Notes under the pieces: model-generated | The model's input: the letters and a program-made list of their open reading frames with translations, nothing else | What the model was told of the DNA's origin: nothing | The model's database searches: none | Shown: positions 4,400 to 56,500 of the stretch, in pieces | Layout of the letters: each line of letters opens with the position of its first letter | Numbering within the stretch: the stretch's first letter is position 1 | Assembly: GCF_020382885.2 (NCBI RefSeq) | Contig: NC_058511.1 | Coordinates: 509,501-573,500, forward strand | Origin: Scatophagus argus | Lineage: Eukaryota; Chordata; Actinopteri; Scatophagidae | Reading direction: 5' to 3' | DNA length: 64,000 nt | Program-made: the position numbers and the translations under genes

Positions 4400-7300
4400 T
4401 CCTTTTTTTAATTGCTTTATTCAACAACCATTTGTGAAACAAACAATAATACATAAAAGGTGGACAATATACATAATGAAAACTGAAAAAGAAATAATTC
4501 ATACAGACAATAAAAAAAAGTAAATAGATAAATAAGAATGAAATAAATAAAAAATAGAAATAAATACATGCCGGGGTCACAAGTAAAATAGGAAAAAGAA
4601 TTAACTTGAATTAAAAATATTATGAAAGTGGGAGCACACCCTCATAGTTTTAATAGCTTTCTTATTTGTAGAAGAAGACACTGATTTAAAATACAATTCG
4701 AATTCTTTCATAAAAACACGAAAAAGATGTCTGACTTTGGAAAATTTACATTTGTGGATGCAGAATTTTGCAAGAATTATAAAAAGATTAATTAAATAAT
4801 ATTCTCTTTCAACTAAAGTGTCAATCTTGAAAAACCCAAAGAGCACATCTTGCAGGAGGAGCTTAAAGTCACAAAAAATATTATTTAAAATAAAATTACA
4901 GATATCTTGCCACAGTTTACTGGTACAATTCCAATTCCAAATAGATGGGTAACAGTCTCAGTATGGGAGTCACAAAAGGCACAGTTTAAATTTAGATCAC
5001 CATATTTGAATTTGATAAAAAAGGATTTAACTGAGTAACACAGATGAATAATTTTAAATGATACATCTTTCACTTTATTAACCACAAAGAAGTTTTGAGG
5101 CAGGGACCAGATTTTTTTCCCAACATAAGTTATTTACATGACTATTCCAATAAGTTATTCCAGGTGAAGTAGAAACAATATGACTTTGGAAAAGAGCGCA
5201 GACCTTACGGTTATTCTTACAACTAGATGTGTTGAAGCATACTTTACCAACTGGTGAGTCAGTTACAGCTGTAAAGGGGACATCAGGCACAGAAACAGAC
5301 ATTTTATTTTTGACTAACATAAGAACACCAGATGGAATAGCATCGAAGACTACAGCATACTGTTCAGGTGTTACAGGTAACCCATAGTGTTGAAGGAACT
5401 CCTGATCAGAAAATAAAACACCATCTGTAGCTGACGCTCGCAATATGGCTATGTTACCGTGGCAATGCCAGAAGTTAAGGTGCAATCATCACATTTCAGT
5501 TCTGATTGTTTATTTGTTTACATAGATTGTGGTGAAACATCCTGAATTATGATCCATGATTGTTGTGGGATCTTGCGGAAATATTTAGTTTTATTGTGAA
5601 AAGGTCACTTCCTGTGTAGCTCAAGCCGGAAGTTGTGATCGGGAATTGAGAAAGAGATGACTGTCTACTACTGGCTAACCAGGCGTACACGGTAATCATT
5701 TTTAAATACTGAAATCCATGTACTTGTGTGAAAGAGAATAATAGAAAATGATGTATATGGAAATATGTTCTTGTTCCAGTTTTCACGGTGTTCCTTAACC
5801 ACGACGAAAGACAATAAAAAGGTTGTGGACATCAGTAAGAGGCGTGATTCTTGTTGCCATAGTAGATACACCATCGCTGTTGAATAGTTGTTTTATAATA
5901 ATATTTAGATAATATTATCGATAAACCACTCCTCAAAGAAAAAGGATCTGTTTCGGTAGAGTAAATCTTTGTTATTCCAAATAGAGTACCGGTGTGGTGA
6001 GAAATTGTGTTGTATTCATAGCCACAGTTTACTGGTACAATTACAGTTCCAGAATAGATGAGTAACAGTCTCAGTATGACAAGCAAGCAACACTTGTTCA
6101 TGAAAGTTGGAAAGACGAACAGGAGTTTTCTCTGTGTTATAGTCGCATGCCAAAAGGAATTTTATAAAACAACATAGTTAGGGACACTCTTCCATATTGA
6201 GTCGGGTTTTCTCAGGAATTGTTTGATCCAGTTAATCTTGAAGGTGTTCAAAGATTCAAAGTCCAAGAAATTAAGCCCCCCATTCTCATATGAGTTCATG
6301 ACAACAGATTTCTTTATGTAATGAGTTTTATTCTTCCATAAAAGTTAAACAACATCTGATCTACGTGTTTGATGGTCTTATTATCAATGTATAATGAGAT
6401 GGCAGTGTAAGTTAGTCTGAATATACCTTCTGCTTTTGTTATTAGCGTCCGATCTCTTAGGAGCCAGAGATTAAACCTTTTTTGGGTCTTTTCTATGGTC
6501 GGAGTAAAGTTTAAAGCAATTCTAGCCTTCTGATCTTTAGCGATGGAGATTCCTAAATATGTTACTGTATTTTTGACAGGGATGTTTGATACTGAGCATG
6601 TAGCTGAGTCTTTCACCGCCATTAATTCACATTTGTTTACATTTAAATGTAGTCCAGAAGCCCCAGAGAACATATTGATTATGCTTAAAGCACGACATAT
6701 CTGGGTAGAATCTTTTTTAAAAAATGGTTGTATCATCTGCAAGCTGACTGATAACGATTTCTCTTTCTGCAATTGTGATGCCTTTCAGAGCTCTTGATTT
6801 AATATGAATAGCTAAGAGTTGGGTGACAAGAAGAAAGAGATAAGAGGAGATAGGACAACCTTGCCGAATTCCTCGTTTAATGTCAAAACGTGGGGTTGTG
6901 CCAGACCTCATTTTAGTAGAACAATTACTAATAGCATTTACGGTTCGAATAGCTTTGCTGAAAAAAAGCCCAAAACCAGATTTCTCTAAAGAACTAAAGA
7001 TAAACTGGTGTTCAACTGAATCAAAGGCTTTATAGAAATCTAAAAATAGGATATAACTGTTATCAGAAATTTCTAACAAGTCTAAAACCAATCTGATGTT
7101 ATTAGATATGTGTCTATTGTTCATGAATCCAGATTGTGATTTGTCTTTGACTGAATCCAAAACTAGCTTAAGCCTTTTCGCAAATACAAGTGCTGACACC
7201 TTATAATCATTGTTTAAAAGATAAATGGGGCGGCAATTATCAATAAGCAGTACATCCTTGTTAGGTTTCAGAATAAGTGTTGTTAAGCCCTGTGTTCATG

Positions 7301-7560: not shown

Positions 7561-8510
7561 GGGCTTTTGAGAGAGAGAGGTTATGGGAGATACTAGCCTG
7601 GAGTAATCATCTTACAATCAATAAACAGACTACATGGGAGTAATCAGATTACAAACGGTAATCAGTCTACCGTAAAGTAATCGGATTACATGAAAGTAAT
7701 CGGGTTACCAAGCAGTAATCGGATTACATGGAAGTAATCGGATTACATGGCAGTAATCAGATTACATGAAAGTAATCGGATTACCCAAGCAGTAATCGGA
7801 TTACCCAAGCAGTAATCAGATTACATGAAAGTAATCGGATTACATGAACTGTAATCAGATTACATGGAAGTAATCAGATTACCAAAGCAGTAATCAGATT
7901 ACATGAACAGTAATCTGATTACACGCAGTAATCTGATTACCCAAACAGTAATCAGATTACCAGTCTTAAGATTTGGGCTTTGGGAGCTGTGGAGCGCAGA
8001 GCCTGACAGAAGAATCGCTGAGCGCTAAAACAGAAACATCAGCGTCACTCATTCATTCAAACTGCACTGTTACACACTTTACTGCTTTCCAATCAGTAAT
8101 CAGACCACATGAAAGTAACCAGATTACATTGAAGTAATCATCTTACAATCAATAAACAGACTACATGAAAGTGACCAGATTACATGAGAGTAAAAAGATT
8201 ACAAACGGTAATCAATCTACCGTAAAGTAATCAGATTACATGAAAGTAATCGGATTACATGAAAGTAATCGGATTACCCAAGCAGTAATCGGATTACATG
8301 GAAGTAATCGGATTACATGGAAGTAATCGGATTACATGGAAGTAATCGGATTACATGGAAGTAATCGGATTACATGAAAGTAATCTGATTACCCAAGTAG
8401 TAATCGGATTACATGGAAGTAATCAGATTACATGAAAGTAATCGGATTACCAGTCTTGTTACCTTGTATTCAGATTTGGGCTTTGGGAGCTCTGGAGCGT
8501 AGAGCCTGAC

Positions 8511-9137
8511 AAATAGTGCAATTTGACAAGGTCCGAAAATGTACCAGCACCAAAGCACCAATCGCGACAAGCACTTGTACCCTTTTAGGTGCACACCCGT
8601 ACTTTTGTTTTTGTGTGTGTACCTCTTCCTCTTTTTCTACCTCCTCTTCTCCCTACACCCTCCTTCACTTCTTCCTTTCTGTCTCCACCTCCTCCTCCAA
8701 CAGAAACACTCGTTGACATCAGATTAAATTCACATTTTATGTTTTTATTCTTTTTTGTTCACTTTTATACAAACAGGTTATCTGACGGATGTTGAAGCGA
8801 TGACTGAAGATCCGCCCGCCGTGTGCTTTGTGGGCAGAGTCAAACCAAGCGCTCCTCCTACAGCCAATGAGAGTGAAGCAGGCATGTGCTGACAGGATGT
8901 TCCTGTTGTCACGGGCATAGAAACAATAAAGAGTAGACGTCGCGTCGACCGCTACTGCCTGTTGGCGCTGACGAGCCGTGGGGCGGCCATCTTGGACCGG
9001 TCACCCGCTCCATTCAGTGTAATCTGTTTGGCAGGCGCAGTGAAGTGTCAGCGCATTTAATCAGTCATAACTCGCTGAATATTTCACTGATTTTCACAAG
9101 TTTTTTTTGCTGCAAACGCGTCACACATGTAGCTATG
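8511..9137. repeat. long duplicated segment, copy 1
   Basis: Shares almost all of its sequence with 11274-11898 and its first two thirds with 14743-15150. It contains a pyrimidine-rich stretch (8610-8700), a TTTATT motif, and a CpG-rich part with GGCGGCCATCTTGG, which resembles a YY1-type site. Copy 1 lacks about 40 bp (the ggtacacaattgtctctcc part) present in the other two. The flanks differ after 9137. No protein is recognised. Confidence 0.85.
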
Positions 9138-9757
9138 ATACAGGACACATGGTTTGACGTATATTAATATTCATAGTAATAGAATATTCTGAAATATGTG
9201 ATGTATGATAGGTATTTTGCAAAACACACAATGCAGAAGCAGATGGTGGCAGTAAAAGCACGACTCAGCAAGAAAGTGGAAATGCCGCCACACACTCTCA
9301 TCTGGTGTTTCAGACCTGCATAACAAAGCAGAGAGAAAAAAATGTATGTAATGTAAAAATGTAGATTGTCAAGTTAAACACAAGAAATGGACACCCCCTC
9401 GGCCCAAACCATATTTACACATGTACAAAGTTGCTAATGAAAGGTTTAATTTTTTTAATCATGAAATTTTTTATTTTATTTTTTAATTTTCCCTCAAATG
9501 CCCCAAAAGACTCTTCACTGTGGTCTTTGCTCTGTTCTCTTGCCATAGCGTTCTTCTTCTCTCCTTCCAGACTTTCCACTCTTGCTGGACGTGGTTTGAT
9601 CGTCTCAGCTCACACTCATCAGTTTGACACCACTCGAGTGTGACCCACATTCTGTCTTATAGTCATCAGCTGTCGAAGCCACTGCACTGTGTGTGTGTGT
9701 GTGTATGTGCGTGTATGTGCCAAGAATGCATGTTCTGATTGGTTTAATAACATTTAA
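9138..9757. other. array-internal spacer without recognised feature
   Basis: Unique within this window. AT-rich with a short GT run near 9689-9704. I see no coding or RNA feature. It separates duplicated segment copy 1 from the next palindromic block. Confidence 0.4.
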
Positions 9758-10540
9758 GCAATCAGATTACAGGATTACAGGAAAGTAATCAGATTACCTA
9801 AACAGTAATCGGACTACAGCCAACAGTAAGATTGCCGGTCAATAGTCAGATTGCCTAAACAGTAATTGGATTACACGCAGTAATCAGATTACCAGTCTTT
9901 AGATTTGGGCTTTGGGAGCTGTGGAGCGCAGAGCCTGACAGAAGAATCGCTGAGCGCTAAAACAGAAACATCAGCGTCACTCATTCATTCAAACTGCACT
10001 GTTACACACTTTACTGCTTTCCAATCAGTAATCAGACCACATGAAAGTAACCAGATTACATTGAAGTAATCAGCTTACAATCAATAAACAGACTACATGA
10101 AAGTGACCAGATTACATGAGAGTAATCAGATTACAAACGGTAATCAGTCTACCGTAAAGTAATCAGATTACATGAAAGTAATCGGATTACCCAAACAGTA
10201 ATCGGATTACATGGAAGTAATCGGATTACCCAAGCAGTAATCGGATTACATGGAAGTAATCGGATTACATGAAAGTAATCGGATTACATGAAAGTAATCG
10301 GATTACCCAAGTAGTAATCGGATTACATGAAAGTAATCGGATTACATGGAAGTAATCGGATTACATGGAAGTAATCAGATTACATGAAAGTAATCGGGTT
10401 ACCAAGCAGTAATCGGATTACATGAAAGTAATCTGATTACCCAAGTAGTAATCGGATTACATGAAAGTAATCGGATTACCAGTCTTGTTACCTTGTATTC
10501 AGATTTGGGCTTTCGGAGCTCTGGAGCGTAGAGCCTGACA

Positions 10541-10795
10541 GATTTGGTACATTTTTGTCTCCTTAAAGTCCAGAATTGCTTGTCACTGGAGGGTACCCTT
10601 ACAAGTACCTTAGAATACCCTTTTAAATGAGTACATTGCTGGACTATAGTTGAGAGTTACTTTTGTGTCTTACGGGATACACAATTTACACAATTGTACT
10701 TTAAATAGTGCAATTTGACAAGGTCCGAAAATGTACCAGCACCAAAGGGTACACAATTGTCTCTCCAAGGGATACCCAATCGCGACAAGCAATCA
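10541..10795. repeat. ~250-bp array segment (one of five)
   Basis: Starts gatttggtacatttttgtc and ends caatcgcgacaagc. Near-identical copies are at 11111-11360, 12471-12719, 13651-13900 and 14580-14829. Each directly follows a full-length vipas39 exon copy, so exon copy plus this segment forms a repeated module of the higher-order array. Confidence 0.85.
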
Positions 10796-11273
10796 GCTTA
10801 CAATCAATAAACAGACTACATGAAAGTCACCAGATTACATGAGAGTAATCAGATTACAAACGGTAATCAGTCTACCATAAAGTAATCAGATTACACGAAA
10901 GTAACCGGATTACATGAAAGTAATCGGATTACCAAAGCAGTAATTGGATTACCAAAGCAGTAATCAGATTACATGAAAGTGATCGGATTACCCAAGTAGT
11001 AATCGGATTACATGGAAGTAATCGGATTACATGAAAGTAATCGGATTACCAGTCTTGTTACCTTGTATTCAGATTTGGGCTTTCAGAGCTCTGGAGCGTA
11101 GAGCCTGACAGATTTGGTACATTTTTGTCTCCTTAAAGTCCAGAATTGCTTGTCACTGGAGGGTACCCTTACAAGTACCTTAGAATACCCTTTTAAATGA
11201 GTACATTGCTGGACTATAGTTGAGAGTTACTTTTGTGTCTTACGGGATACACAATTTACACAATTGTACTTTA

Positions 11274-11898
11274 AATAGTGCAATTTGACAAGGTCCGAAA
11301 ATGTACCAGCACCAAAGGGTACACAATTGTCTCTCCAAGGGATACCCAATCGCGACAAGCACTTGTACCCTTTTAGGTGCACACCCGTACTTTTGTTTTT
11401 GTGTGTGTACCTCTCCCTCTTTTTCTACCTCCTCCACTTCTTCCTTTCTGTCTCCACCTCCTCCTCCAACAGAAACACTCGTTGACATCAGATTAAATTC
11501 ACATTTTATGTTTTTATTCTTTTTTGTTCACTTTTATACAAACAGGTTATCTGACGGATGTTGAAGCGATGACTGAAGATCCGCCCGCCGTGTGCTTTGT
11601 GGGCAGAGTCAAACCAAGCGCTCCTCCTACAGCCAATGAGAGTGAAGCAGGCATGTGCTGACAGGATGTTCCTGTTGTCACGGGCATAGAAACAATAAAG
11701 AGTAGACGTCGCGTCGACCGCTACTGCCTGTTGGCGCTGACGAGCCGTGGGGCGGCCATCTTGGACCGGTCACCCGCTCCATTCAGTGTAATCTGTTTGG
11801 CAGGCGCAGTGAAGTGTCAGCGCATTTAATCAGTCATAACTCGCTGAATATTTCACTGATTTTCACAAGTTTTTTTTGCTGCAAACGCGTCACACATT
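11274..11898. repeat. long duplicated segment, copy 2
   Basis: Second copy of the segment at 8511-9137. It and copy 3 (14743 onwards) give identical conceptual translations over more than 80 codons, so these two are the youngest pair or have been homogenised. After 11898 palindromic units resume. Confidence 0.85.
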
Positions 11899-14742
11899 CC
11901 TAAACAGTAATCGGATTACACGCAGTAATCTGATTACCCAAACAGTAATCAGATTACCAGTCTTAAGATTTGGGCTTTGGGAGCTGTGGAGCGCAGAGCC
12001 TGACAGAAGAATCGCTGAGCGCTAAAACAGAAACATCAGCGTCACTCATTCATTCAAACTGCACTGTTACACACTTTACTGCTTTCCAATCAGTAATCAG
12101 ACCACATGAAAGTAACCAGATTACATTGAAGTAATCAGCTTACAATCAATAAACAGACTACATGAAAGTGACCAGATTACATGAGAGTAATCAGATTACA
12201 AACGGTAATCAGTCTACCGTAAAGTAATCGGATTACATGGAAGTAATCGGATTACCCAAACAGTAATCGGATTACATGGAAGTAATCGGATTACATGGAA
12301 GTAATCGGATTACATGGAAGTAATCAGATTACATGAAAGTAATCTGATTACCCAAGTAGTAATCGGATTACATGGAAGTAATCGGATTACATGAAAGTAA
12401 TCGGATTACCAGTCTTGTTACCTTGTATTCAGATTTGGGCTTTGGGAGCTCTGGAGCGTAGAGCCTGACAGATTTGGTACATTTTTGTCTCCTTAAAGTC
12501 CAGAATTGCTTGTCACTGGAGGGTACCCTTACAAGTACCTTAGAATACCCTTTTAAATGAGTACATTGCTGGACTATAGTTGAGAGTTACTTTTGTGTCT
12601 TACGGGATACACAATTTACACAATTGTACTTTAAATAGTGCAATTTGACAAGGTCCGAAAATGTACCAGCACCAAAGGGTACACAATTGTCTCTCCAAGG
12701 GATACCCAATCGCGACAAGCAATCAGCTTACAATCAATAAACAGACTACATGAAAGTCACCAGATTACATGAGAGTAATCAGATTTCCAATCAGTAATCA
12801 GTCTACCATAAAGTAATCTGATTACATGAAAGTAATCTGACTACCCAAGCAGTAATCTGATTACATGAAAGTAACCAGATTACATTGAAGTAATCAGATT
12901 ACATGGAAGTAATCGGATTACCCAAGCAGTAATCAGATTACATGAACAGTAATCGGATTACATGGAAGTAATCGGATTACCAAAGCAGTAATCAGATTAC
13001 ATGAACAGTAATCGGATTACATGGAAGTAATCAGATTACCAAAGCAGTAATCAGATTACATGAACAGTAATCGGATTACACGCAGTAATCTGATTACCCA
13101 AACAGTAATCAGATTACATGAACAGTAATCGGATTACACGCAGTAATCTGATTACCCAAACAGTAATCAGATTACCAGTCTTAAGATTTGGGCTTTGGGA
13201 GCTGTGGAGCGCAGAGCCTGACAGAAGAATCGCTGAGCGCTAAAACAGAAACATCAGCGTCACTCATTCATTCAAACTGCACTGTTACACACTTTACTGC
13301 TTTCCAATCAGTAATCAGACCACATGAAAGTAACCAGATTACATTGAAGTAATCAGCTTACAATCAATAAACAGACTACATGAAAGTGACCAGATTACAT
13401 GAGAGTAATCAGATTACAAACGGTAATCAGTCTACCGTAAAGTAATCAGATTACATGAAAGTAATCGGATTACCCAAACAGTAATCGGATTACATGGAAA
13501 GTAATCAGATTACATGAAAGTGATCGGATTACCCAAGTAGTAATCGGATTACATGGAAGTAATCGGATTACATGAAAGTAATCGGATTACCAGTCTTGTT
13601 ACCTTGTATTCAGATTTGGGCTTTCAGAGCTCTGGAGCGTAGAGCCTGACAGATTTGGTACATTTTTGTCTCCTTAAAGTCCAGAATTGCTTGTCACTGG
13701 AGGGTACCCTTACAAGTACCTTAGAATACCCTTTTAAATGAGTACATTGCTGGACTATAGTTGAGAGTTACTTTTGTGTCTTACGGGATACACAATTTAC
13801 ACAATTGTACTTTAAATAGTGCAATTTGACAAGGTCCGAAAATGTACCAGCACCAAAGGGTACACAATTGTCTCTCCAAGGGATACCCAATCGCGACAAG
13901 CAATCAGCTTACAATCAATAAACAGACTACATGAAAGTCACCAGATTACATGAGAGTAATCAGATTTCCAATCAGTAATCAGTCTACCATAAAGTAATCT
14001 GATTACATGAAAGTAATCTGACTACCCAAGCAGTAATCTGATTACATGAAAGTAATCGGATTACATGAACAGTAATCAGATTACCAGTCTTTAGATTTGG
14101 GCTTTGGGAGCTGTGGAGCGCAGAGCCTGACAGAAGAATCGCTGAGCGCTAAAACAGAAACATCAGCGTCACTCATTCATTCAAACTGCACTGTTACACA
14201 CTTTACTGCTTTCCAATCAGTAATCAGACCACATGAAAGTAACCAGATTACATTGAAGTAATCAGCTTACAATCAATAAACAGACTACATGAAAGTGACC
14301 AGATTACATGAGAGTAATCAGATTACAAACGGTAATCAGTCTACCATAAAGTAATCAGATTACACGAAAGTAACCGGATTACATGAAAGTAATCGGATTA
14401 CCAAAGCAGTAATTGGATTACCAAAGCAGTAATCAGATTACATGAAAGTGATCGGATTACCCAAGTAGTAATCGGATTACATGGAAGTAATCGGATTACA
14501 TGAAAGTAATCGGATTACCAGTCTTGTTACCTTGTATTCAGATTTGGGCTTTCAGAGCTCTGGAGCGTAGAGCCTGACAGATTTGGTACATTTTTGTCTC
14601 CTTAAAGTCCAGAATTGCTTGTCACTGGAGGGTACCCTTACAAGTACCTTAGAATACCCTTTTAAATGAGTACATTGCTGGACTATAGTTGAGAGTTACT
14701 TTTGTGTCTTACGGGATACACAATTTACACAATTGTACTTTA

Positions 14743-15150
14743 AATAGTGCAATTTGACAAGGTCCGAAAATGTACCAGCACCAAAGGGTACACAATTGTC
14801 TCTCCAAGGGATACCCAATCGCGACAAGCACTTGTACCCTTTTAGGTGCACACCCGTACTTTTGTTTTTGTGTGTGTACCTCTCCCTCTTTTTCTACCTC
14901 CTCCACTTCTTCCTTTCTGTCTCCACCTCCTCCTCCAACAGAAACACTCGTTGACATCAGATTAAATTCACATTTTATGTTTTTATTCTTTTTTGTTCAC
15001 TTTTATACAAACAGGTTATCTGACGGATGTTGAAGCGATGACTGAAGATCCGCCCGCCGTGTGCTTTGTGGGCAGAGTCAAACCAAGCGCTCCTCCTACA
15101 GCCAATGAGAGTGAAGCAGGCATGTGCTGACAGGATGTTCCTGTTGTCAC
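14743..15150. repeat. long duplicated segment, copy 3, joined to vipas39 3' end
   Basis: Third copy. It stops matching at about 15150, where the sequence continues into the vipas39 3' flank. A TTTATT at 14982-14987 (AATAAA on the minus strand) inside this copy is the first poly(A)-signal-like motif I noticed downstream of the vipas39 stop, so the vipas39 3' UTR may extend into the duplicated segment. Confidence 0.75.
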
Positions 15151-15224
15151 GAGGATGGAGGATCGTCCCTTCGCACAGGAAACTGCCACCTTGTTTCAAA
15201 GTAAAAGTCTTTCACTGAAACAGC

Positions 15225-18200
15225 TCAGTTCTTCCACCGGATTTGCTGAAAGAGAAGAAGAAAAGAGGTCCAGTGAGGACAGGTGATGAAGACGGAGAAG
15301 ACGACTCTTCCTCGTCATCCTCACCGGGTTGTTGAGCAGCTCATTGATCTTCCTCTCCTCCACCGATCCTCGCTCCACCTTCCCCCGGTATCCCAGCAGC
15401 AGCTGCCGGTCTTTCAGGTCCCGGTAAGTCTGATAGGCCCAGAGACACATCATAGCAAACACACAGTCGAGTGTCAGGTTTCACGAAGCGCACTTCTGCA
15501 TAATTCTGATTGGTTTAATAAAGTGTAAACAATCATCCAATCAGAGGGTGTTGTGAGAGTAAAAGTCAGTCTCACGTTGATGACGATGTCGTGACATTTA
15601 TGTTTCTGAGCCAAAGTGATCCTCAGCTCTGCATCATCGACCAACGCCACGTAGTCCTGCAGCACCTGTCCAACATACCACACACCTCATCGTCTCTCCT
15701 TCAACACCTTGACTCAACATGTTCTTACTTTCCATTGGTGGGACTGCTATGGCCACACCCCCTCACCTGTGTGGGGGCAGAGTTCTTCTGTAGGATGTCG
15801 ACAACTCGTTGGAAGCTCAGTGGTGATTTCTTCCTGGTGAAGCCAAGCCAATTCCTGCTGGTGAACAGAGCGTCCACGTCCGACCACGCCTTCAGCTTCG
15901 CCCGAGCCGCCAGCGCCGTCACAAAGTACTGCTTCTCAGAGATCTGAGGTCAAAGGTCAGCAGCTGTCAGTGACACAAACGTTATCTTCGAAAGTGTCAA
16001 TAAAAACTGAGAGAAAATGATCAGCTCTTACCTTAAAAGTCTGACGGATGTTCAACGGGCTGCTGTAGGTTCCCTGCAATCAGAGATAAAAACAGGCTCA
16101 ACTGATCTGAATCAGCTGAACCGCTTTGACTGATCTGGTTTAACCAGTACAGGTTCACTATCCTGATCGAACCAGTCCGCTTTGACCAACCTCAGACTCA
16201 GTGTAGTGGTAGAAGCAGCAATAGTACAGCGTTGTGACCAGCGGCATGTTGAGAATGGAGGCTCTTCTGGGAAACTTCTGGAAGATTTCCGCCTTCCCTC
16301 CGCGCTCGGCGTGCTGGTCGGTTGCCTAGCAACACAGAGCAAAAACAGGGATGGCACCTGGCATATACTTGGGTTTGCTCTGAGATTACGGTGGGATTCA
16401 AACTGCGTGTAAACTGTGATTAAACAGAGGAACTGCTGGAAATAAACAGGAAATAAACAGTGAAGTGAAGTGGGACAAGAGATGTGAGTCAGAGCTTAAA
16501 CCACATCAGGAAAGACTTCAGTGATTTTAATAATAAATCCACAAAAATGCCCAAAGGTTTTACAGGTCTGTCAGGTTGTGTTTGTCTGATGCTCTTCAAA
16601 TAAATCAGCAAATTTATTGACAAAGCAAAAGGAATGTTATGTTTTGGAAGTCCGACTGGTTGGGTCTGGTTTAGTGTGACCTCTGACCTCGATGATGATC
16701 TGCCTCTCCAGCAGAGTGAAGTGATCCTGAACATGAGCTGAATCTTCTGCAGAAAACGGAAGACTGGAAATAAACAAACAAACAAACAAACAAAAGAAAG
16801 ATGGTGATGTCGTTAAGGACATCATCAAGTAATTCATGATTCACAGATTAGTCACTACAGATATGACAACATCTAAATGATTCACACATGTTATTTAATA
16901 AATTATTTTTATAACCAAACGTCGTCAGTTCACAGTATTTGTTTACGTGTTATTCTGTTGTAAAGTACGGTGGCCTGCAGGACTCACTCACCTGAGGCAG
17001 CTCTTGAGGAAGTCCCGTCTCTTGTTTTCATCAGCAATGCTCAGGTGTTCTTTATACTGCAGCAGCTGTCAGACAAACAGGAAGTGACTGATGAGCCACC
17101 GATACTACAGCTGTGTACTACAGCTGTGTACTACAGCTGTGTACTTCTTGAGTGTATGTGGTGTGGACTACATACCGCCACGTCCTCTGTCCGGCCCAGA
17201 GCTCTGAGGAGGACCAGAAGAAGAAAACACATGAGTTAAACAAATGACAGACCAGGTGTGTCCAGGTGTACGTGCAGATGCAGGTGTGAGCAGAGACCTG
17301 AGCAGCTCCAGCAGCAGCCTCTGCTCTCTGGTCTCAGTCAGGTAGTGGATGAAATGTCTCAGAGCTGTTTGCCTGGACTCCAGCTCCCGAAACAAAACCT
17401 CTGAGCAGGAAAACACAACAAGTCAATACACAACACTGATCCTGGACCAGGTCTGACTGATCCAGAGTCTGACTTACCTTTACTCAGAGTCCTCTTTAAG
17501 TAAATTAACACCTGAAACAGCAAACAGTGTGTAGTCAATTGTTTGTGATGATATTTATTGGTGTTGTTAATAAAGTTAAGAGATAATGCCGCCGTGGATC
17601 AGATTGTCAATAAAGTTACAGCCGTGATGACGTTTCCGTCGTGTGCGCTGACGGCGAAATCGAGCAGCAGCAGTTTGTCCTGAAGAGATCGAAACTTCTC
17701 CAAAGACACAGCCTGAAACAGACGCAGTGCAAATACACTGTGATCCTACACATCAGTACTACGTTGTATCATTACACACTAATACAGCTTGTACTACAGA
17801 CTCTCCACAGCCTGAATCATATGCAGTACAAATACACTGCAATAGTACCTCTCTAGAGAAACAGTACTGCCAAATATCAGTAATGTACTGCAACAAGCCT
17901 GAGCCACAGACAGGTGGACAGACAGGTAGACAGACAGGTGTGTTACCTTTCCCTGCTGCATTCTGTGGACTGTCTCCTCAGGTGACCAATCACTGACATA
18001 ATCCTGACATCACAACACGACATCATCATTAGCACACCAGGAAAACAAATCAGATTAGCAATCTGATCAGAAGTAATCAGATGACTGGAAAGTTACTGCC
18101 TGTAATCTGATTACCCAAACAGTAATCGGATTACCAGTCTTGTTACCTTGTATTCAGATTTGGGCTTTCGGAGCTCTGGAGCGTAGAGCCTGACAGAAGA

Positions 18201-19102
18201 ATCGCTGAGCGCTAAAACAGAAACATCAGCGTCACTCATTCATTCAAACTGCACTGTTACACACTTTACTGCTTTGTGTACTACAATATATCTCAATATG
18301 TACACAGACAAGTTGAAGTTTTTTTTTTATTGAAGACTTTTAACTATGTGTCGCCTTTATGTTCTGACTTTGCCCTGTGGGGGGCGCAGTAAAGCACCAG
18401 CTCAGACTCACAGTCGGAGAAGGACTGGAAGTTCCCTCCTTTGGTTTTTCCTGCAGGTAAACAAATTCATCAGTCGTGAATCCAGTGGTTACTGTACCCG
18501 AGTCATGTGTCTCACCTGTCCACCGGTGCACCTGTCTCACCTTTGAACAGAGAGCTCAGAGAGTATCCCGAGTTACTCTTGCTGATGGTCGGCGTGTCTG
18601 CATTGACTTTGGGGAAGGCGGGCTCTCTGTCTGTCCTCTGATTGGATGCTGCCGTCTCTTTGACCGACCAGGAGATGCCTGAGGAGACGGACGGACAAAC
18701 CAAACCTTGCAGCCAATCACAGCTTCGGACCCTGCACGGGCGTTTCATAATAAGAATGAAGTCTTACTCCCGACGGGTTCTCCGCTCCAGCTGACCTTCT
18801 CCACGTCGTCTTCTTCATCGTCTTCCTCCACCAGGCGGCGGATGCTGTTCACCGCCTGCTTCGACTCTTTCAGCTGACAACACACAAACACAGCATCAAC
18901 ACCTGAGCGTCACGCAGGTGCACCGACACACCTGCTGCCTCACTCAGTCTGGTTCAGGTTTTCAGGTCGGTCTGGTTTTGGTCTGGCTCAGATCTGGTTC
19001 AGGTCTTACCCTGCTGAACTCGTCGTCTTCATCATCAAAGGTGAAAGCTTTAAACTTGGAGCTGTTCCAGTAATCTTCCTCATCTGCCTTATTCTTCATC
19101 AT
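15225..19102 (-). CDS. vipas39: VIPAS39 / SPE-39 vesicle-sorting protein
   Basis: Partner of VPS33B in the CHEVI tethering complex, acting in endosomal and apical membrane sorting. Coding exons (plus coordinates): 19010-19102, 18768-18873, 18541-18678, about 18408-18450, 18147-18189, 17947-18003, 17620-17712, 17478-17511, 17298-17400, 17176-17203, 16992-17056, 16688-16763, 16191-16325, 16032-16073, 15767-15943, 15576-15665, 15325-15429, 15225-15245. The total is 1449 nt, 482 residues; the human protein is similar in length. Recognised signatures are [20 protein letters not shown] at the N-terminus, [50 protein letters not shown] and the terminal QIRWKN, encoded by a 21-nt last exon. For the fourth exon the strong GTGAGT donor (18410-18411) breaks the frame; a donor 4 nt further keeps it, so that junction is uncertain. 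The fifth exon is the one copied into the array downstream. It is head-to-head with ahsa1, as in human 14q24. Confidence 0.93.
18061..18137. repeat. short palindromic-repeat tract in vipas39 intron
   Basis: A few degenerate units (GTAATCTGATTAC, GTAATCGGATTAC) lie ten bases from the functional 43-nt vipas39 exon. The arrangement, palindromic units then CAGTCTTGTTAC then exon, is the same as in every full-length exon copy of the downstream array. Confidence 0.85.
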
Positions 19103-19560: not shown

Positions 19561-20370
19561 TGGGAGTTGTAGTGAATAGTTCAATTACAACTTTTTAAGT
19601 CAAAATTCAGTTCAAGATTCAGTTCAATTATATAAATAAATACATTTCACATGAAAAATTTGTATTGGATGTACATTCATCTTAAATGCTGAAGAAAATC
19701 GTCACCATCTGTGAACATTTATTAAATAAATGTGATCTATTTTTCAGAAATGAATAAATAAAAGACTTGGAAGAGGAAATTAAAATGTAAAAAATGTTTT
19801 TACTGTTTAATATAATGGGGTGTTTTATGCTTGTGCCACTTTGTTTTTCTTTTCTCAATTTTTTTTGAATATTAATGACAATCAAATAGATGAACATTTT
19901 AAAAGAAGTTTTAATTCAGTTCATTTTAAATTTCTAAATATTTCTGTCATTTACCGTCATTTCTCTGAAGTTCTGTTAACATTAACTTCACATCAGTTAA
20001 TGATTTTCATGTTTCTGTACATTCAGAGCTTCTCCAACATCCAATATCAGTTTTATTATCATTACACATCTTTATTACTTCATAATCTTATATTATTATA
20101 TCAGAGTTATTTTTCCTCACTTTATTTTTGTCTTATTTTTAACTCTCTCATTTGGCTCACTTCTTTGGAGACATTTTGTTAGTTATTATTATTATTCACT
20201 GCTGCATCCTGTTTGTGTTGTTTTACTTTGAAAGTTCTTGGAGGAAGTAGTTAAACTGATTGTGTGTGACTTAAAGTTGGTTTTAGGTTTCAGTTGAACA
20301 GTCAGAAACGCACAGGAGACGTCTGGTTCAACACTCAACAGTTTACAGCAGTTACAGCGGTACTACCTCA
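19561..20370. promoter_or_regulatory. shared vipas39/ahsa1 promoter interval
   Basis: The gap between two divergent housekeeping genes. It is strongly AT-rich from 19600 to 20210 with no CpG island visible, and no coding sequence is recognised. The divergent arrangement suggests shared regulatory sequence; specific sites cannot be named with confidence. Confidence 0.4.
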
Positions 20371-20647
20371 GTGAGTACAGCAGTAATACTACAGAGAGTA
20401 CAGCAGTAATACCTCAGTGAGTACAGCAGTAATACTACAGAGAGTACAGCAGTAATACCTCAGTGAGTACAGCAGTAATACTACAGAGAGTACAGCAGTA
20501 ATACCTCAGTGAGTACAGCAGTAATACTACAGAGAGTACAGCAGTAATACCTCAGTGGGTACAGCAGTAATACTACAGAGAGTACAGCAGTAATACCTCA
20601 GTGGGTACAGCAGTAATACCTCAGTGGGTACAGCAGTAATACTACAG
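20371..20647. repeat. 46-bp minisatellite immediately upstream of ahsa1
   Basis: Tandem units reading GTGAGTACAGCAGTAATACT then ACAGAGAGTACAGCAGTAAT then ACCTCA, about six copies, each containing two related half-units. It ends some 24 bp before the ahsa1 start codon, so it lies in the promoter or 5' UTR. Confidence 0.9.
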
Positions 20648-43182: not shown

Positions 43183-45762
43183 ATGGACTGGCATCAGCTG
43201 GAGCTCAGCCCGAGGATCATTGCAGCCGTGAAGAGAGGTGAAAAGAGCCCCAACTCCAGACTCCATTCACAAATATGACACTTAAATATTTCATCCCTCA
43301 CTCTCAAAAGTAGTGCGTTTATAGAACACACTGTCTTAGATTATATGTTCTACTTGTACCATCCGCATGTATTGTACATAGCGTATTTGTATGTAGCTGA
43401 TGTACGACAAAGTTTCATACAAAACTTCCAAACTTCAAAGGTTGACTTAAAGCTGCAGATATTTGTATGGAGTTTCTCTGTCTCGTTCTAAAAGCTGGAG
43501 CGTAATGATTTGTGGGTGGTGGGTGGCCTTGTACAGCCACAAGTGTCTGTATCCTGTTGTTAGATGTATAAACTGAGACATTCAGTCTGTTGTCATTATT
43601 TGATAATTTTCACTGTTACTGTGCTGTTTTTAACCTCCAGCTAAACTCACATCTGTCAGAGAGGTGTTGTGCGTTTCTGGCCTGGACCTGCAGAGACTCA
43701 CCGGCCTGTCCCTCTCAGACGTCCAGCAGCTGCTCACTGCTGCTGCCACCGCCTGCAGACGACACCCTCCAGTCTCAGGTCAGATCAGTAATCACGCAGT
43801 CCGATTGGACGTCACAACGTGATGTCACAACATGTATTAACCAGTGCGTTAATGTGGGCAGCCCTCCTGCTCCATCGTGGAGAGTGTCCCAGGCTGGAGT
43901 CCGGCCTCAGGCTCAGCGTTGGCTGTCCCGTCCTCGATGAGCTGCTGAGGGGAGGTCTTCCTGTGGGGGGCGTCACTGAGCTGTCTGGAGAGAGTGGAGC
44001 AGGGAAGACACAGCTGGCTCTGCAGCTCTGTCTGTCTGTACAGTACCCAGCGCAGCATGGGGGACTGAGCTCAGGTCAGCAAACGTTGATACTTGTAGTA
44101 TCTACATGCCCCAAATTACCTCCAGAACCCAGAAGAGTTGTTATGTATTATTAAGTGTAGTTGACCTACACTCAGCAGTGTGCCTGAAGGCATCCTGTGC
44201 AGACAGGATGCTGCAGGTCGTGTCCTGTAAAATGGTGTCTGTCTGCAGGAGCTGTTTATATCTGCACTGAGGACTCGTTTCCCATCAAACGTCTGCAGCA
44301 GCTGATCAGACATCAGTCCTGTCTGCGCTCTGATGTCCCTCCATCACTGATCAGCAGACTCCAGTTCAGTGACCACGTTTACATCGAACACGCTGCTGAC
44401 CTGGTGAGTCTGTCAAACTGACCCCTGATCAGTGATGCTGGCTGACTGTTAACATTCTGACTGATGATGCAGCTGATTTATTCACCTGCAGGACTCACTG
44501 CATGTGTGTCTGTCCCGCCGTGTCCCCCTCCTCCTGGCTCGTGGTCTGGTCCGGCTCCTGGTGATCGACTCGGTGGCGGCTCTGTTCAGGTCTGAATTCC
44601 AGGCTGCTGATTGGCTGGAGAGGACCAAACAGCTGCTCACCTTCTCCTCCACACTGCACCACCTGAGCCAGGAGTTTACCACACCTGTCCTCTGCATCAA
44701 CCAGGTAATGCACACCTGTCCTCTGACGTCATGGCAGAGCTGCTGGTTGTGTTTGTTTTGTTGGGATCCAGAGAAGAAGTAGAATCAACTTTTATTGGCA
44801 GTATATATATTTTTACATACACATACTGAATTTTACTACTGCATTTGACCCATCCTTAGTTGAACACACACATGCAACACCTGACAGATTACATGCAGTG
44901 AAGCACACACAGGAGCAGTGGGCAGCATCAAGCGCCTGGGGAGCGCTTGTTGCTCGTATTGCGGGGGTTAAGTGCCTTGCTCAAGGGCACATCAGCCGGC
45001 TAATGAAGCGGGGGGGGGGCATTTTAAACAGCTGCTGATGTGATGGACCAGGGGGCACCTGGTTATGAACCGGGGACCTCTTGATCTGCAGTCAAATGCT
45101 CTACCACTGAGCTATACCCCCTCCTGGACTGGCCTACTGGACCAGTAGGCCCACAGTACTGGGAGCAGCTGTTGTTCGGGACTGTGAACTGCAGGCCTGT
45201 CAGGACAGGGTGTCAGGCCAGGTGCCCCTCTGAGCAGCCACACTTCCTGAAGGATGACTGTAATTGTGAAGAGCTGACATTGGTGGCAAACCCTTCACAG
45301 AGTATTAGGACAACAGATCTGAATCCTGTTTGTGTTTCAGGTGTCCGACGTGTTCAACAGCTCAGACGACACTTTCGGGTAAAAACCATTTCACATCTCC
45401 TTTCTTCAACCGTCTTTTGGTGTGTGAATCTGAAAAATCATGACAAGCCAGTAGAAAGTTTGATCACACTGAGCTGCAGAAGAAGCAGCAGCTCCGAGGA
45501 GACTGAACTCCACTCAGATTTTAATCAAATTTCTCTCAGTCCTCAGTCCTCCAGCGTCTCACCAGCTCTGGGGTTGGCCTGGGCCAGTCAGGTGCTAGTT
45601 CGGCTGATGATTCGGCGCCTTCAGGTCACAGTTGCCCGTGGTGACCAGCGCAGCGCCCTGCGCAGGCTGGAGGTGGTGTTTGCTCCTCATCTGGCCCGAG
45701 ACGGAAGAGACGCCGCCGTCTGGAGGGAGGGGGTCCGAGGAGTCACGAGCGGCGAGCCGTGA
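43183..45762 (+). CDS. xrcc3: RAD51 paralogue XRCC3
   Basis: Homologous-recombination ATPase of the RAD51C-XRCC3 complex. Exons: 43183-43237, 43641-43778, 43862-44074, 44249-44403, 44492-44704, 45341-45378, 45540-45762. The sum is 1035 nt, 344 residues (human 346). The start [20 protein letters not shown] fits the family. The Walker A motif is canonical (GESGAGKT) and Walker B is [42 protein letters not shown] and CINQVSDVF are also family signatures. Exon 6 is only 38 nt, with its donor at 45379 chosen because reading through hits TAA. AATAAA occurs at 45822. Intron 5 (636 bp) carries a dispersed repeat with a tRNA-Cys-like end. XRCC3 is near BRF1 in human 14q32 too. Confidence 0.95.
44776..45049. 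repeat. dispersed repeat in xrcc3 intron 5
   Basis: Begins near CTTTTATTGGCAGTATATAT and includes GCATTTGACCCATCC, AGCAGTGGGCAGCATCAAGC and GTGCCTTGCTCAAGGGCACA, wording common to a fish dispersed family. The first ~170 bp recur at about 47272-47420. It leads directly into the tRNA-like segment, suggesting a SINE-type composite. Confidence 0.7.
45050..45121 (-). tRNA. tRNA-Cys(GCA)-like sequence, probably pseudogene/SINE part
   Basis: On the minus strand a 72-nt cloverleaf can be drawn: acceptor GGGGGTA/TGCCCCC, D arm GCTC-AGTGGTA-GAGC, anticodon arm TTTGA-CTGCAGA-TCAAG (anticodon GCA), T arm CCCGG-TTCATAA-CCAGG. It is very close to vertebrate tRNA-Cys. However, the T stem has a C-A mismatch and the T loop lacks the conserved A58, so the B box is damaged (GGTTCATAACC). 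No intron. It is antisense in xrcc3 intron 5 and fused to a dispersed repeat, so I favour a tRNA-derived pseudogene over a working gene. No T-run terminator follows closely on the minus strand. Confidence 0.6.
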
Positions 45763-48299: not shown

Positions 48300-48830
48300 T
48301 CAGCCAATCAGAGTCCAGAGCTGTGAGACCGCAGAGCAGCCAATCAGAGTCCAGAGCTGTGAGACCGCAGAGCAGCCAATCAGTGTCCAGAGCTGTGAGA
48401 CCGCAGAGCAGCCAATCAGAGTCCAGGGCTGTGAGACTGGAGCAGCCAATCAGAGTCCAGAGCTGTGAGACCGCAGAGCAGCCAATCAGAGTCCAGAGCT
48501 GTGAGACCGCAGAGCAGCCAATCAGGGTCCAGAGCTGTGAGACTGGAGCAGCCAATCAGAGTCCAGAGCTGTGAGACTGGAGCAGCCAATCAGGGTCCAG
48601 AGCTGTGAGACCGCAGAGCAGCCAATCAGGGTCCAGAGCTGTGAGACTGGAGCAGCCAATCAGAGTCCAGAGCTGTGAGACCGAGCAGCCAATCAGAGTC
48701 CAGAGCTGTGAGACCGCAGAGCAGCCAATCAGGGTCCAGAGCTGTGAGACCGCAGAGCAGCCAATCAGAGTCCAGAGCTGTGAGACCGCAGAACAGCCAA
48801 TCAGAGTCCAGAGCTGTGAGACTGGAGCAG
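48300..48830. repeat. 36-bp minisatellite with a CCAAT box in each unit
   Basis: About 15 tandem units of AGAGCAGCCAATCAGAGTCC followed by AGAGCTGTGAGACCGC; some units are shortened by a few bases (ACTGGAGCAGCC form). Each unit contains AGCCAATCAG, a strong NF-Y/CCAAT-box match. It lies about 300-800 bp upstream of the serpin start codon. The long VSQLWTLIGCSA frames on the minus strand are repeat artefacts. Confidence 0.93.
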
Positions 48831-53310: not shown

Positions 53311-53554
53311 TGTTGGACAGGATAAGTTAACTGTTATGACAGTGGAACCACAAAAGACCAAACATGAACCCCTCCTTGACTTACTGCGGAGGGATTCAGG
53401 GAGGGATGGTCTCACACAAATATTGATTCATAAAGACCCCTGTGATTGGTTCAGTAAGCTCAGTTACAAGCTTGTTTGGGGGCAGTCCTTTACCTAGTCG
53501 ACTTACAAAACCTTGTGGGATCATCAATTACCAGCAAAATGTCTTAGCAAGAAC

Positions 53555-56500
53555 TCACATCGACAGCTTTCTGGACTGGCTGTCCTTCACCCCGGAGCCC
53601 CGGTCCATTGTTTTACTTCGCTGGTCCAAAGTACTGGTCCTATGGTCTCTCTGGTCATGGGTACTGGGCCTGTGGTCTCTCTCGTCCAAGGTACTGGTCC
53701 TGTGGTCTCTCTGGTCCAAGGTACCAGTCCTGTGGTCTCTCTGGTCCATGGTACTGGTCCTATGGTTTCTCTGGTCGAAAGTACTGGTCCTATGGTCTCT
53801 CTGGTCCAATGCACTGGTCCTATGGTCTCTCTGGTCCAGGGCACTGGTCCTGTGGTCTCTCTGGTCCAGGGCGCTGGTTCTATGGTCCAATGTACTGGTT
53901 CTGTGGTCCATTGTAGTGGTTCTGTGCTCCATTATATTGTTCCTGTGATCCATGTTACTGGTTCTGTGGTCCAGTGTAATGGTTATGTGATCTCTCTGGT
54001 CTAGTGTGCTGGTCTTGTGGTCTACACTACTGGCTCTGTGGTCCAGTGTGCTGGCCCTGTCCAGGAGGCTGGTGGTGTTGCTGCGGATCAAGACTGGCAT
54101 AGAGGATGTGGCTTGGCTTGCCATAGTGAAGTGGGCAGTCCTCAAGGAGTCATCTATAAAACACAGGTGATGTATGAATAAAGACAATCAAATAGAGTGT
54201 CTCCTCTAAGTCCGTAACAGTCCGTGTTAGATGTGCAGGAGGTCATACCTTTGCTCGATAACACTGAGGGCTTCCCGGCTCCAGATGTACTGCTCAGCTC
54301 TTTCACTTTCCTGAAAACCAAAACCAAAAACAGAGTATACAAAAGCATGAACTTTGGTTTTGTTGAAGTTTGAGTATTCCAGATGAGATGTGGCAAACAG
54401 CAAGCTTCCAGTTGCCCCAGTGACCACACAGTGATCTCAAAGAGTACTGACCCCAGCCTGAGTACACTTCTACATCACCGCCCTGAGGCGGCTACTTCAA
54501 CTCTCACATGTTTGAAGCTGTAAAGTCATTTCTGTTTCTGGACTGCCATCATGGTGAAGAAGAAGCCAGAAAGCAACCAGGCCAAGAAGATTAACGCAGA
54601 GGCTCAGAGGAGGACCAAGATGTCCGACTAAATCTACAAACTGACAAAGGCCAAGAGGATGATTAAGGAGATCATCAAGCATGATTCCAGGAGGATCCTG
54701 CACAGATGTTGATCAGAAGTCCTATGGTCTTGTTCTTCTCTGAGTTCAGTCCAGAAATCCTGCCAAGACAACTAATTTCAACTGTTTGAACCCTCATTCT
54801 TTCAGCCTCAACCCAAAGACCAAGGATTGGTTGCCCCCATCTGGTCTTTACTAAACCTGATCCTAATAACAGCTGCAGTAAGTCAGTCTTTGCTAAGACC
54901 AGACTTGAGAATAGTCTTTGGTCGCACCAGCCAAACTTAAGTCCTGTTTGGCCTCTGGCTGTGTGTCTGTCCACATTTGTGGAATAAGTGTGCAGTGATA
55001 TCATGCTCGTTCTAAAGTTGATGCACAATCGTCCTCACAATATCAACCAGTGGTGTGACGTTTAAAGAACCTAATATCTAGATTTTGCCTTGATACCTGC
55101 TTCTAAGTAAGGGTAATATTAACACCTGTGAAGAAGACTTAAACCGTGATGTTTCAGGCACCAACCAACATACAGATCTCATGTTCCATTTTCCTGCACA
55201 TCTGAAGAAGACCCTGAGATTGTTGAGGTGACAGTTTAAACAGGACCAGTTCTTACAGAGGTCTGTCTGAGTTGGTAGATTTGGATGTCGTTGGCTGACT
55301 ACTGAGGGACCGACTCCGTGAAAGTTTAGCCTTCCTCATCTCTTTACCTGTAAGGAGAACAAATAGCATCATCATCACAATTTGAATTTCAGAGACGATT
55401 GATGTAAGGTTTAAACTCCACCATAGTCAACAATTTCGACAATTAGTTCAACAATTTTCCTGCGGGATCAATAAAGTTCTTATCTTAGTCAAGTATGTAC
55501 TGAATTACCACGAATACCACAGTGCAACTCATCCCTAAACTGTCCAAACAAGCTGAAATGTTCTGAGCTACATAAAGTCAGTTTCATTTTGTGCCAAGTT
55601 CTGAGTATTTTTATGAAACTGAAACTTTAACCACTTGTTTTCAGCACAAACAATGCTAACATGTCAACACCTTGTAAGCTGATAGAGTGAACTTGTAGCT
55701 GCTTATTTCCACAGGCAACAAGATCAAATAGAAGAAAACTGTGTTCATAGTTCACAGGTAGAACATTCTCTCAGTGTCCACATAGTCACAGCTCGTCTTC
55801 AGTCATATATTTGTCTTACTGGAGGAGGACAAGGTGGCTCCAGACGAAGACACAGACATGGATTTGGTAGCAGATAGACTGGTCTTACTGTCCCTTCCTG
55901 TCAAAGGCAGACAGTTTACAGAATGGACTAAAAAGCAGGAATACATTAATTAAAAAACTCTGACAAGTAATACACATCAATTAAAACGACTAACTGAACT
56001 ATTTTGACAAATCATCAAATTAACTCTCCTCTGTGGATCATTTTAGGCAAAAGTAAAACATCACAGTTTAGCTCACGTTTTCTCTCCGTATGTTTTTCAG
56101 AGTTCAGTTTATCTTCACTCTGCTGGCGCTCCAGATGTTCCTGATGGCAGAGGAGACATCATGAAAACAATGCAGAACTGAAGTGATTCAGACTGAACGT
56201 GATCTGTATGGTTCAGGCTTACCATCTCCAGCAGAAGAGTCTCCTCCTTTTCCTTCTTCTGGTCCAGTAAATCCCTCTCCTGCCTCTTGTGAAACTACAA
56301 AACCACAACAAACCGGATGGAGGAACATCAGAAGTGAAAAAAAAAACCTCAGATGTTTTCTATACTTTGGTCCTTTATGAGAACAAGCTGCTTACAGGCT
56401 CTGTGAGGTCCAGTTTGTCCAGTTCCAACACTGTCTGAAAAACATTGTGAGCACAATTAATTCATTGTGGATTATTATTCATGCAGACCTACAGAGTGTT

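Follow-up and report, generated by a model that had tools for sequence, protein, structure and literature searches.

A composite minisatellite array downstream of vipas39 in Scatophagus argus carries pieces of exon 5 as probable passengers

The window analysed here is a stretch of 64,000 nucleotides from Scatophagus argus (C19:509501-573500, where C19 is contig NC_058511.1), and it contains the gene vipas39 followed, past the 3' end of the gene, by a composite array in which a palindromic minisatellite is combined with eleven pieces of vipas39 exon 5. We consider it probable that a composite minisatellite was amplified here at a young age of the array, and that the exon pieces were carried along as passengers. 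The array is a real, locally confined mosaic amplification, of a known kind and with an unusual repeat unit, and its exon fragments most likely do nothing. Genome-wide counts were taken from the 570.7-Mb assembly, which consists of 48 contigs.

A BLAST comparison of exon 5 and 100 bases on each side (18047-18289) against the window returned, besides the gene, 11 exon-containing matches (E 1.4e-35 to 2.2e-58), all on the same strand in gene orientation; the other matches were minisatellite or short chance matches. The exon fragments span 7957-14581, past the vipas39 stop codon at 15225-15227, and are far beyond chance, which bears out what a first-pass annotation of this DNA had reported on their number, orientation and place. 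They fall into two classes. In the acceptor-less class (n=6), the match with the gene starts in the minisatellite, takes in the donor and continues into the exon as far as 18197 in five copies or 18195 in one, where a module termed T1 begins, and under the 65-nt model of exon 5 that is preferred below the acceptor and the first 14-16 nt of the exon are lacking. An in-frame TGA is found in three of these six copies and an Arg-to-Pro change, via base 18169, in two. In the donor-less class (n=5), the match covers 18156-18275, acceptor included, and is accompanied by a 13-nt deletion across the donor, three common substitutions (18169, 18176 and 18184) and an altered base at 18155. All five have kept the acceptor unaltered, along with 64 nt of the intron upstream of it, and the 91 bp of 18185-18275 are identical across the gene, the five donor-less copies and a distant copy described below. 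The exon parts of the array copies are 49-56 nt long, and in the preferred model all 11 copies are probably truncated, each without one splice site. The exon had been described as carried in eleven times. Since there are two copy classes, each with class-wide breakpoints, separate insertions are unlikely, and we infer that the exon was captured once or twice and then co-amplified.

The repeat unit that surrounds the exon pieces is almost exclusive to this locus. The palindrome TAATCNGATTA occurs 105 times in the window (103 in the array, two in the vipas39 intron and none elsewhere), compared with 2 in total in 50 windows simulated from the dinucleotides of the remaining window sequence. The central position is occupied by G in 58 copies, by A in 34 and by T in 13. 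Among the 92 pairs of neighbours less than 80 bp apart, the spacing is 19 in 42 and 20 in 28, giving a period of 19-20 bp, and the head-to-tail units thus lie within the 6-99 nt by which minisatellites are defined in PMC2688266. The minisatellite stretch 8225-8450, the sole one folded, is predicted to form a strong single-stranded DNA structure (z -12.8, 0 of 200 shuffles as good). In the assembly, the tandem palindrome GTAATCNGATTAC-N3..9-GTAATCNGATTAC has 83 forward matches, of which 73 are in the array, one is in the vipas39 intron and nine are at the distant site; the reversed-pattern control had 0 assembly matches, and a minisatellite scan of viral contigs also gave 0. Perfect palindromic units lie beside the functional exon 5 at 18102 and 18122, as the first-pass annotation had stated, and its proposal that an intronic minisatellite expanded with the exon as a passenger gains support from the confinement of the tandem palindrome to the locus and one distant site.

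Three further modules make the array a mosaic. Read upwards from 7600, it begins with minisatellite, a donor-less copy, minisatellite, an acceptor-less copy, a remnant of T1, module T2 and, from 8914 to about 9735, a transposable element. It continues with minisatellite, a donor-less copy, minisatellite, an acceptor-less copy, T1, minisatellite, an acceptor-less copy, T1, T2 and part of the element (11683-11897). At its close the order minisatellite, donor-less copy, minisatellite, acceptor-less copy, T1 occurs three times, and the third leads through T2 into the vipas39 3' untranslated region (3'UTR). The five full copies of T1, each 249 bp long, are 100% identical; of the three T2 copies, two are identical over 321 bp and one departs by a single substitution and a 19-nt insertion; the first 215 bp of the element recur at 11683-11897 with 100% identity. 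The eleven minisatellite blocks, by comparison, have eleven different lengths, from 56 to 450 bp. Because several modules are 100% identical, the array is young-looking, that is, young or homogenised. T1 and the transposable element are, as far as their relatives indicate, dispersed repeats: diverged T1 relatives (77-87%) lie on three other contigs (C14, C22 and C8), and the element has at least 82 assembly matches, two of them in the array (40 of 71 candidates scored). Copies of AATAAA are found in T2 at 14987, 11518 and 8749, with another in the element at 9480; the one at 14987 is the only one between the vipas39 stop codon and the first exon copy, and lies upstream of all copies in gene direction. 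T2 also has a plus-strand frame that is preceded by an AG and stays open for 37 codons, but its reading as a coding exon was dropped, T2 being a continuation of the vipas39 3'UTR with a minus-strand AATAAA. At Rfam gathering thresholds nothing was matched in the array, and the one match in the window was a tRNA (45050-45121). Just past the far end of the array lies a reverse-transcriptase fragment (RVT_1, E 9.4e-18; 6717-7199, minus strand).

One copy of the exon piece lies far from the array. The 152-bp exon module has 13 matches in the assembly, of which one is the gene, 11 are the array copies and one lies at C19:1806379-1806504. The last is part of an insertion with 12 palindromes that can be aligned co-linearly with 12824-13363 for about 540 bp (87%), and it has the 13-nt deletion and the three substitutions of the donor-less class as well as the new junction after 18275. 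Of the expansion or transposition suggested earlier, the idea of movement is strengthened by this twelfth copy 1.28 Mb away. Near the distant insertion, a GAGGAGTGTGAG-type repeat of about 970 bp (L025:5718-6686) is open in several frames, up to 439 amino acids.

Table 1. Positions of vipas39, the array modules, the exon 5 copies and the distant insertion (window coordinates unless a contig or locus is named).
Feature	Position	Strand	Details
vipas39, intact, 18 exons, 491 codons	15225..19102	-	spliced frame without internal stop
Exon 5, functional, most probably 65 nt (preferred model)	18147..18211	-	exon-4/exon-5 combination test
Intron adjoining exon 5	18041..18146	-	two perfect and several decayed palindromic units; proposed birthplace of the minisatellite
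Composite array	7600..14581		11 minisatellite blocks of 56-450 bp (borders set by us); 103 GTAATCNGATTAC palindromes in 7600-14600, mostly 19-20 bp spacing
Module T1, dispersed-repeat fragment	14582..14830		identical copies at 10543, 11113, 12473 and 13654; 45-bp remnant 8511-8555
Module T2, for the most part distal 3'UTR of vipas39 and sequence downstream of it	14831..15159	-	AATAAA at 14987; copies 11362-11682 and 8574-8913
Dispersed transposable element	8914..9735		joined to T2 copy; far end, about 9735, is where relatives stop
Donor-less exon copy	7957..8088	-	acceptor and 64 nt of intron kept; sequence comparison
Acceptor-less exon copy	8440..8511	-	donor kept; Arg to Pro; sequence comparison
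Donor-less exon copy	9889..10020	-	sequence comparison
Acceptor-less exon copy	10469..10542	-	identical to gene over 74 bp; sequence comparison
Acceptor-less exon copy	11039..11112	-	in-frame TGA; sequence comparison
Donor-less exon copy	11954..12085	-	sequence comparison
Acceptor-less exon copy	12399..12472	-	Arg to Pro; sequence comparison
Donor-less exon copy	13172..13303	-	sequence comparison
Acceptor-less exon copy	13580..13653	-	in-frame TGA; sequence comparison
Donor-less exon copy	14081..14212	-	sequence comparison
Acceptor-less exon copy	14508..14581	-	in-frame TGA; sequence comparison
Distant insertion, minisatellite and donor-less exon copy	C19 ~1806021-1806571 (L025:3522-4072)		1.28 Mb from vipas39, same contig

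How the copies are classified depends on the length of exon 5 in the gene itself. The vipas39 product is 65% identical (322/494 aligned positions) to human VIPAS39, and it matches Pfam Vps16_C as a whole (E 4.2e-6, 26.5 bits against a cut-off of 21), with no single stretch passing alone; a PDB search with a 59-residue piece gave 0 matches at E up to 0.001. Two of the six exon-4/exon-5 combinations tested were free of stops, 39+65 nt and 82+43 nt. The exon of 43 nt assumed at first, when joined to a 39-nt exon 4, produced 12 internal stops, compared with none for 65 nt. We prefer the 65-nt exon because the 39+65 model aligns without gaps with the human SLSDALSDTPAKSYAPEL, whereas the 82+43 model inserts seven residues, and exon 5 is thus most probably 65 nt long (18147-18211) and not 43 nt. 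The splice-site scores speak for the other choice. On a small matrix built from vipas39's own sites (16 other acceptors), which discriminates weakly, the acceptor of the 65-nt exon scores 4.3, compared with 7.1 for the internal AG of the 43-nt exon, and, with the 90th percentile for the 322 array AG sites at 5.5, does not rank among their top tenth; the exon-4 donor scores 6.7 in the 39+65 model and 7.3 in the 82+43 model. Because these scores point the other way, the 65-nt model rests on the gap-free alignment with human VIPAS39. The six copies that had been called full length with both splice dinucleotides are read differently under this model, since their matches end inside the 65-nt exon and their AG is probably exon-internal; in the 82+43 model they would be full length, with both dinucleotides present.

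These observations can be arranged into a proposed course of events. A hairpin-prone palindromic repeat of 19-20 bp would have arisen in the intron beside exon 5, and we propose the stretch 18041..18146 as its birthplace because decayed units lie in this intron and the repeat is confined to this chromosome region. Break repair or template switching during replication may then have copied minisatellite, exon 5 and intron to the downstream flank, in a piece that bears the 13-nt donor deletion and the three substitutions in the donor half. A second exon piece would have been joined to the T1 dispersed-repeat fragment beyond the vipas39 3' end, at a joint with GACA, a string that the gene shares with two T1 relatives, in which it occupies the corresponding position. 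The other joints share about one matching base, and homology is conceivable at the remaining boundary, which is inside the minisatellite. Tandem duplication, together with unequal exchange and conversion, could subsequently have multiplied the two exon pieces along with T1, T2 and the transposable element, as suggested by the identical modules and the differing minisatellite lengths. Finally, a donor-less module, by whatever route, would have reached the site 1.28 Mb off on the same contig, where it is present today. The locus may thus be a compact, young-looking case of an intronic palindromic minisatellite by which gene pieces, among them a partial exon and a polyadenylation signal, are copied out of the gene, and once to a far site.

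Several points weigh against this course of events. Variable sites among the donor-less copies are clumped, with 5/35 in the donor part versus 0/86 in the rest (Fisher p 0.0016), or p 0.023 when the three common substitutions only are counted, both comparisons being post hoc; we tentatively ascribe these changes to one error-prone repair event. The distant copy retains the gene's base at 18155, which is changed in all five donor-less array copies, and has a change of its own at 18158. Because the 18155 base is retained, simple descent from one of today's array copies does not account for it. The change at 18169 is shared by all donor-less copies and also by two of the six acceptor-less copies, so that conversion between the classes, or another order of events, is possible. 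Both the direction from intron to array and the order of events are inferred from the assembly of one species.

Other explanations were weighed against the passenger amplification. Mis-joining or false duplication of the array copies during assembly is unlikely: false duplication is expected to yield modules of 100% identity, as several are, but each minisatellite block has its own length, fixed differences separate the two exon-copy classes, and a separate distant copy is present. It is slightly less probable still that the exon and minisatellite pieces travelled as cargo of a mobile transposon. The module at a second site 1.28 Mb away and the dispersed element and T1 inside the array would fit such cargo, but this is the only such insertion found in the assembly, no 16-mer is common to it and T1, T2 or the element, and no target-site duplication is evident, the 50-base stretches at its approximate borders sharing no string longer than 5 nt. 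That the exon piece is a dispersed repeat exonised by vipas39, which the first-pass annotation had named as one of two findings that would overturn its account, is hardly credible. One module copy does lie outside the locus, yet 12 of only 13 assembly matches are at this locus, the distant one has the derived changes of the donor-less class, and the exon peptide aligns to human VIPAS39.

As for function, the copies had been suggested to act as decoy exons, into which read-through vipas39 transcripts would be spliced to give altered or decaying mRNA. The gene's donor is unaltered in the six acceptor-less copies (score 9.9 each), the acceptor with its 64 nt of intron is unaltered in the five others, and six copies would be full length under the less likely 82+43 model. 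In the 65-nt model, however, no copy holds both splice sites; the AG that follows T1 in the six donor-bearing copies scores -1.3 in one and -2.6 in five, against a lowest value of 6.4 among the 16 other gene acceptors, although the matrix is weak and the preferred acceptor of exon 5 itself reaches only 4.3; three of the six carry an in-frame stop; and the AATAAA at 14987 precedes every copy. We therefore regard decoy splicing as improbable, to about the same degree as transposon cargo.

Another proposal concerns the palindromes themselves, which match the sequence TAATNNNATTA of P3 homeodomain sites. According to a preprint (PMC12636397) in which TAAT-CCG-ATTA is the K50 probe of choice for P3 sites, ALX4, a Q50 factor, has an affinity for this probe similar to that of CRX, and K50 factors show low cooperativity on P3 sites. 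Read on the other strand, this probe is the commonest array unit (58/105), and the palindrome of TAAT, three bases and ATTA is common to the array and the P3 sites of paired-like homeodomain dimers; the array differs in having 105 clustered copies, as candidate sites. It could be imagined that the array, next to vipas39 and the receptor gene nearby, is a platform of about 100 P3-type sites for such dimers (Otx/Crx/Pitx-like or Alx-like), working as an enhancer or as a sink for transcription factors, and is kept by that activity with the exon pieces riding along. This is very improbable, and the low cooperativity reported for K50 factors weakens the case for K50 dimers. Should homeodomain dimers in fact bind the palindromes, the array would offer a natural test of whether a large cluster of factor sites can arise through repeat expansion.

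The passenger amplification has parallels in known systems. Like minisatellites and composite higher-order arrays, the array has a short unit (19-20 bp), length-variable blocks and larger units in tandem; here, however, the unit is a near-perfect palindrome that is in tandem only at vipas39 and one site on the same contig, and the larger unit bears two different parts of one exon and the 3' end of the gene. The Stellate / Suppressor of Stellate system of Drosophila also includes a tandem array with fragments related to a coding gene; the present exon parts differ in being 49-56 nt long and in gene orientation. In PMC2583991, fork stalling with template switching, end joining and unequal exchange are treated for human rearrangements, with matches of 2-5 nt at the joints, and palindromes and minisatellites are listed as break-prone structures near recombination hot spots. 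The complex duplications treated there resemble the array in joining fragments from several places, with at least one joint having a 4-nt match. They were described in human, whereas the mechanism proposed here is deduced from the arrangement and most joints share about one base. A literature search gave, among the matches listed, no account of the array or of vipas39 exon repeats in titles or abstract beginnings.

The window also contains other genes and repeats. A rhodopsin-type receptor open reading frame (7tm_1, E 8.8e-46) lies at 1024-2166 on the minus strand and may be a proton-sensing or GPR132-like receptor. Upstream of vipas39, a 46-bp minisatellite at 20353-20642 has 6.3 copies with a 97% match. 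A 36-bp minisatellite with 14.8 copies, whose consensus has a CCAAT core, is located at 48301-48822, and minisatellites of 30 bp and 21 bp at 53442-54187 have open frames, of 168, 163 and 210 amino acids, spread over the two strands.

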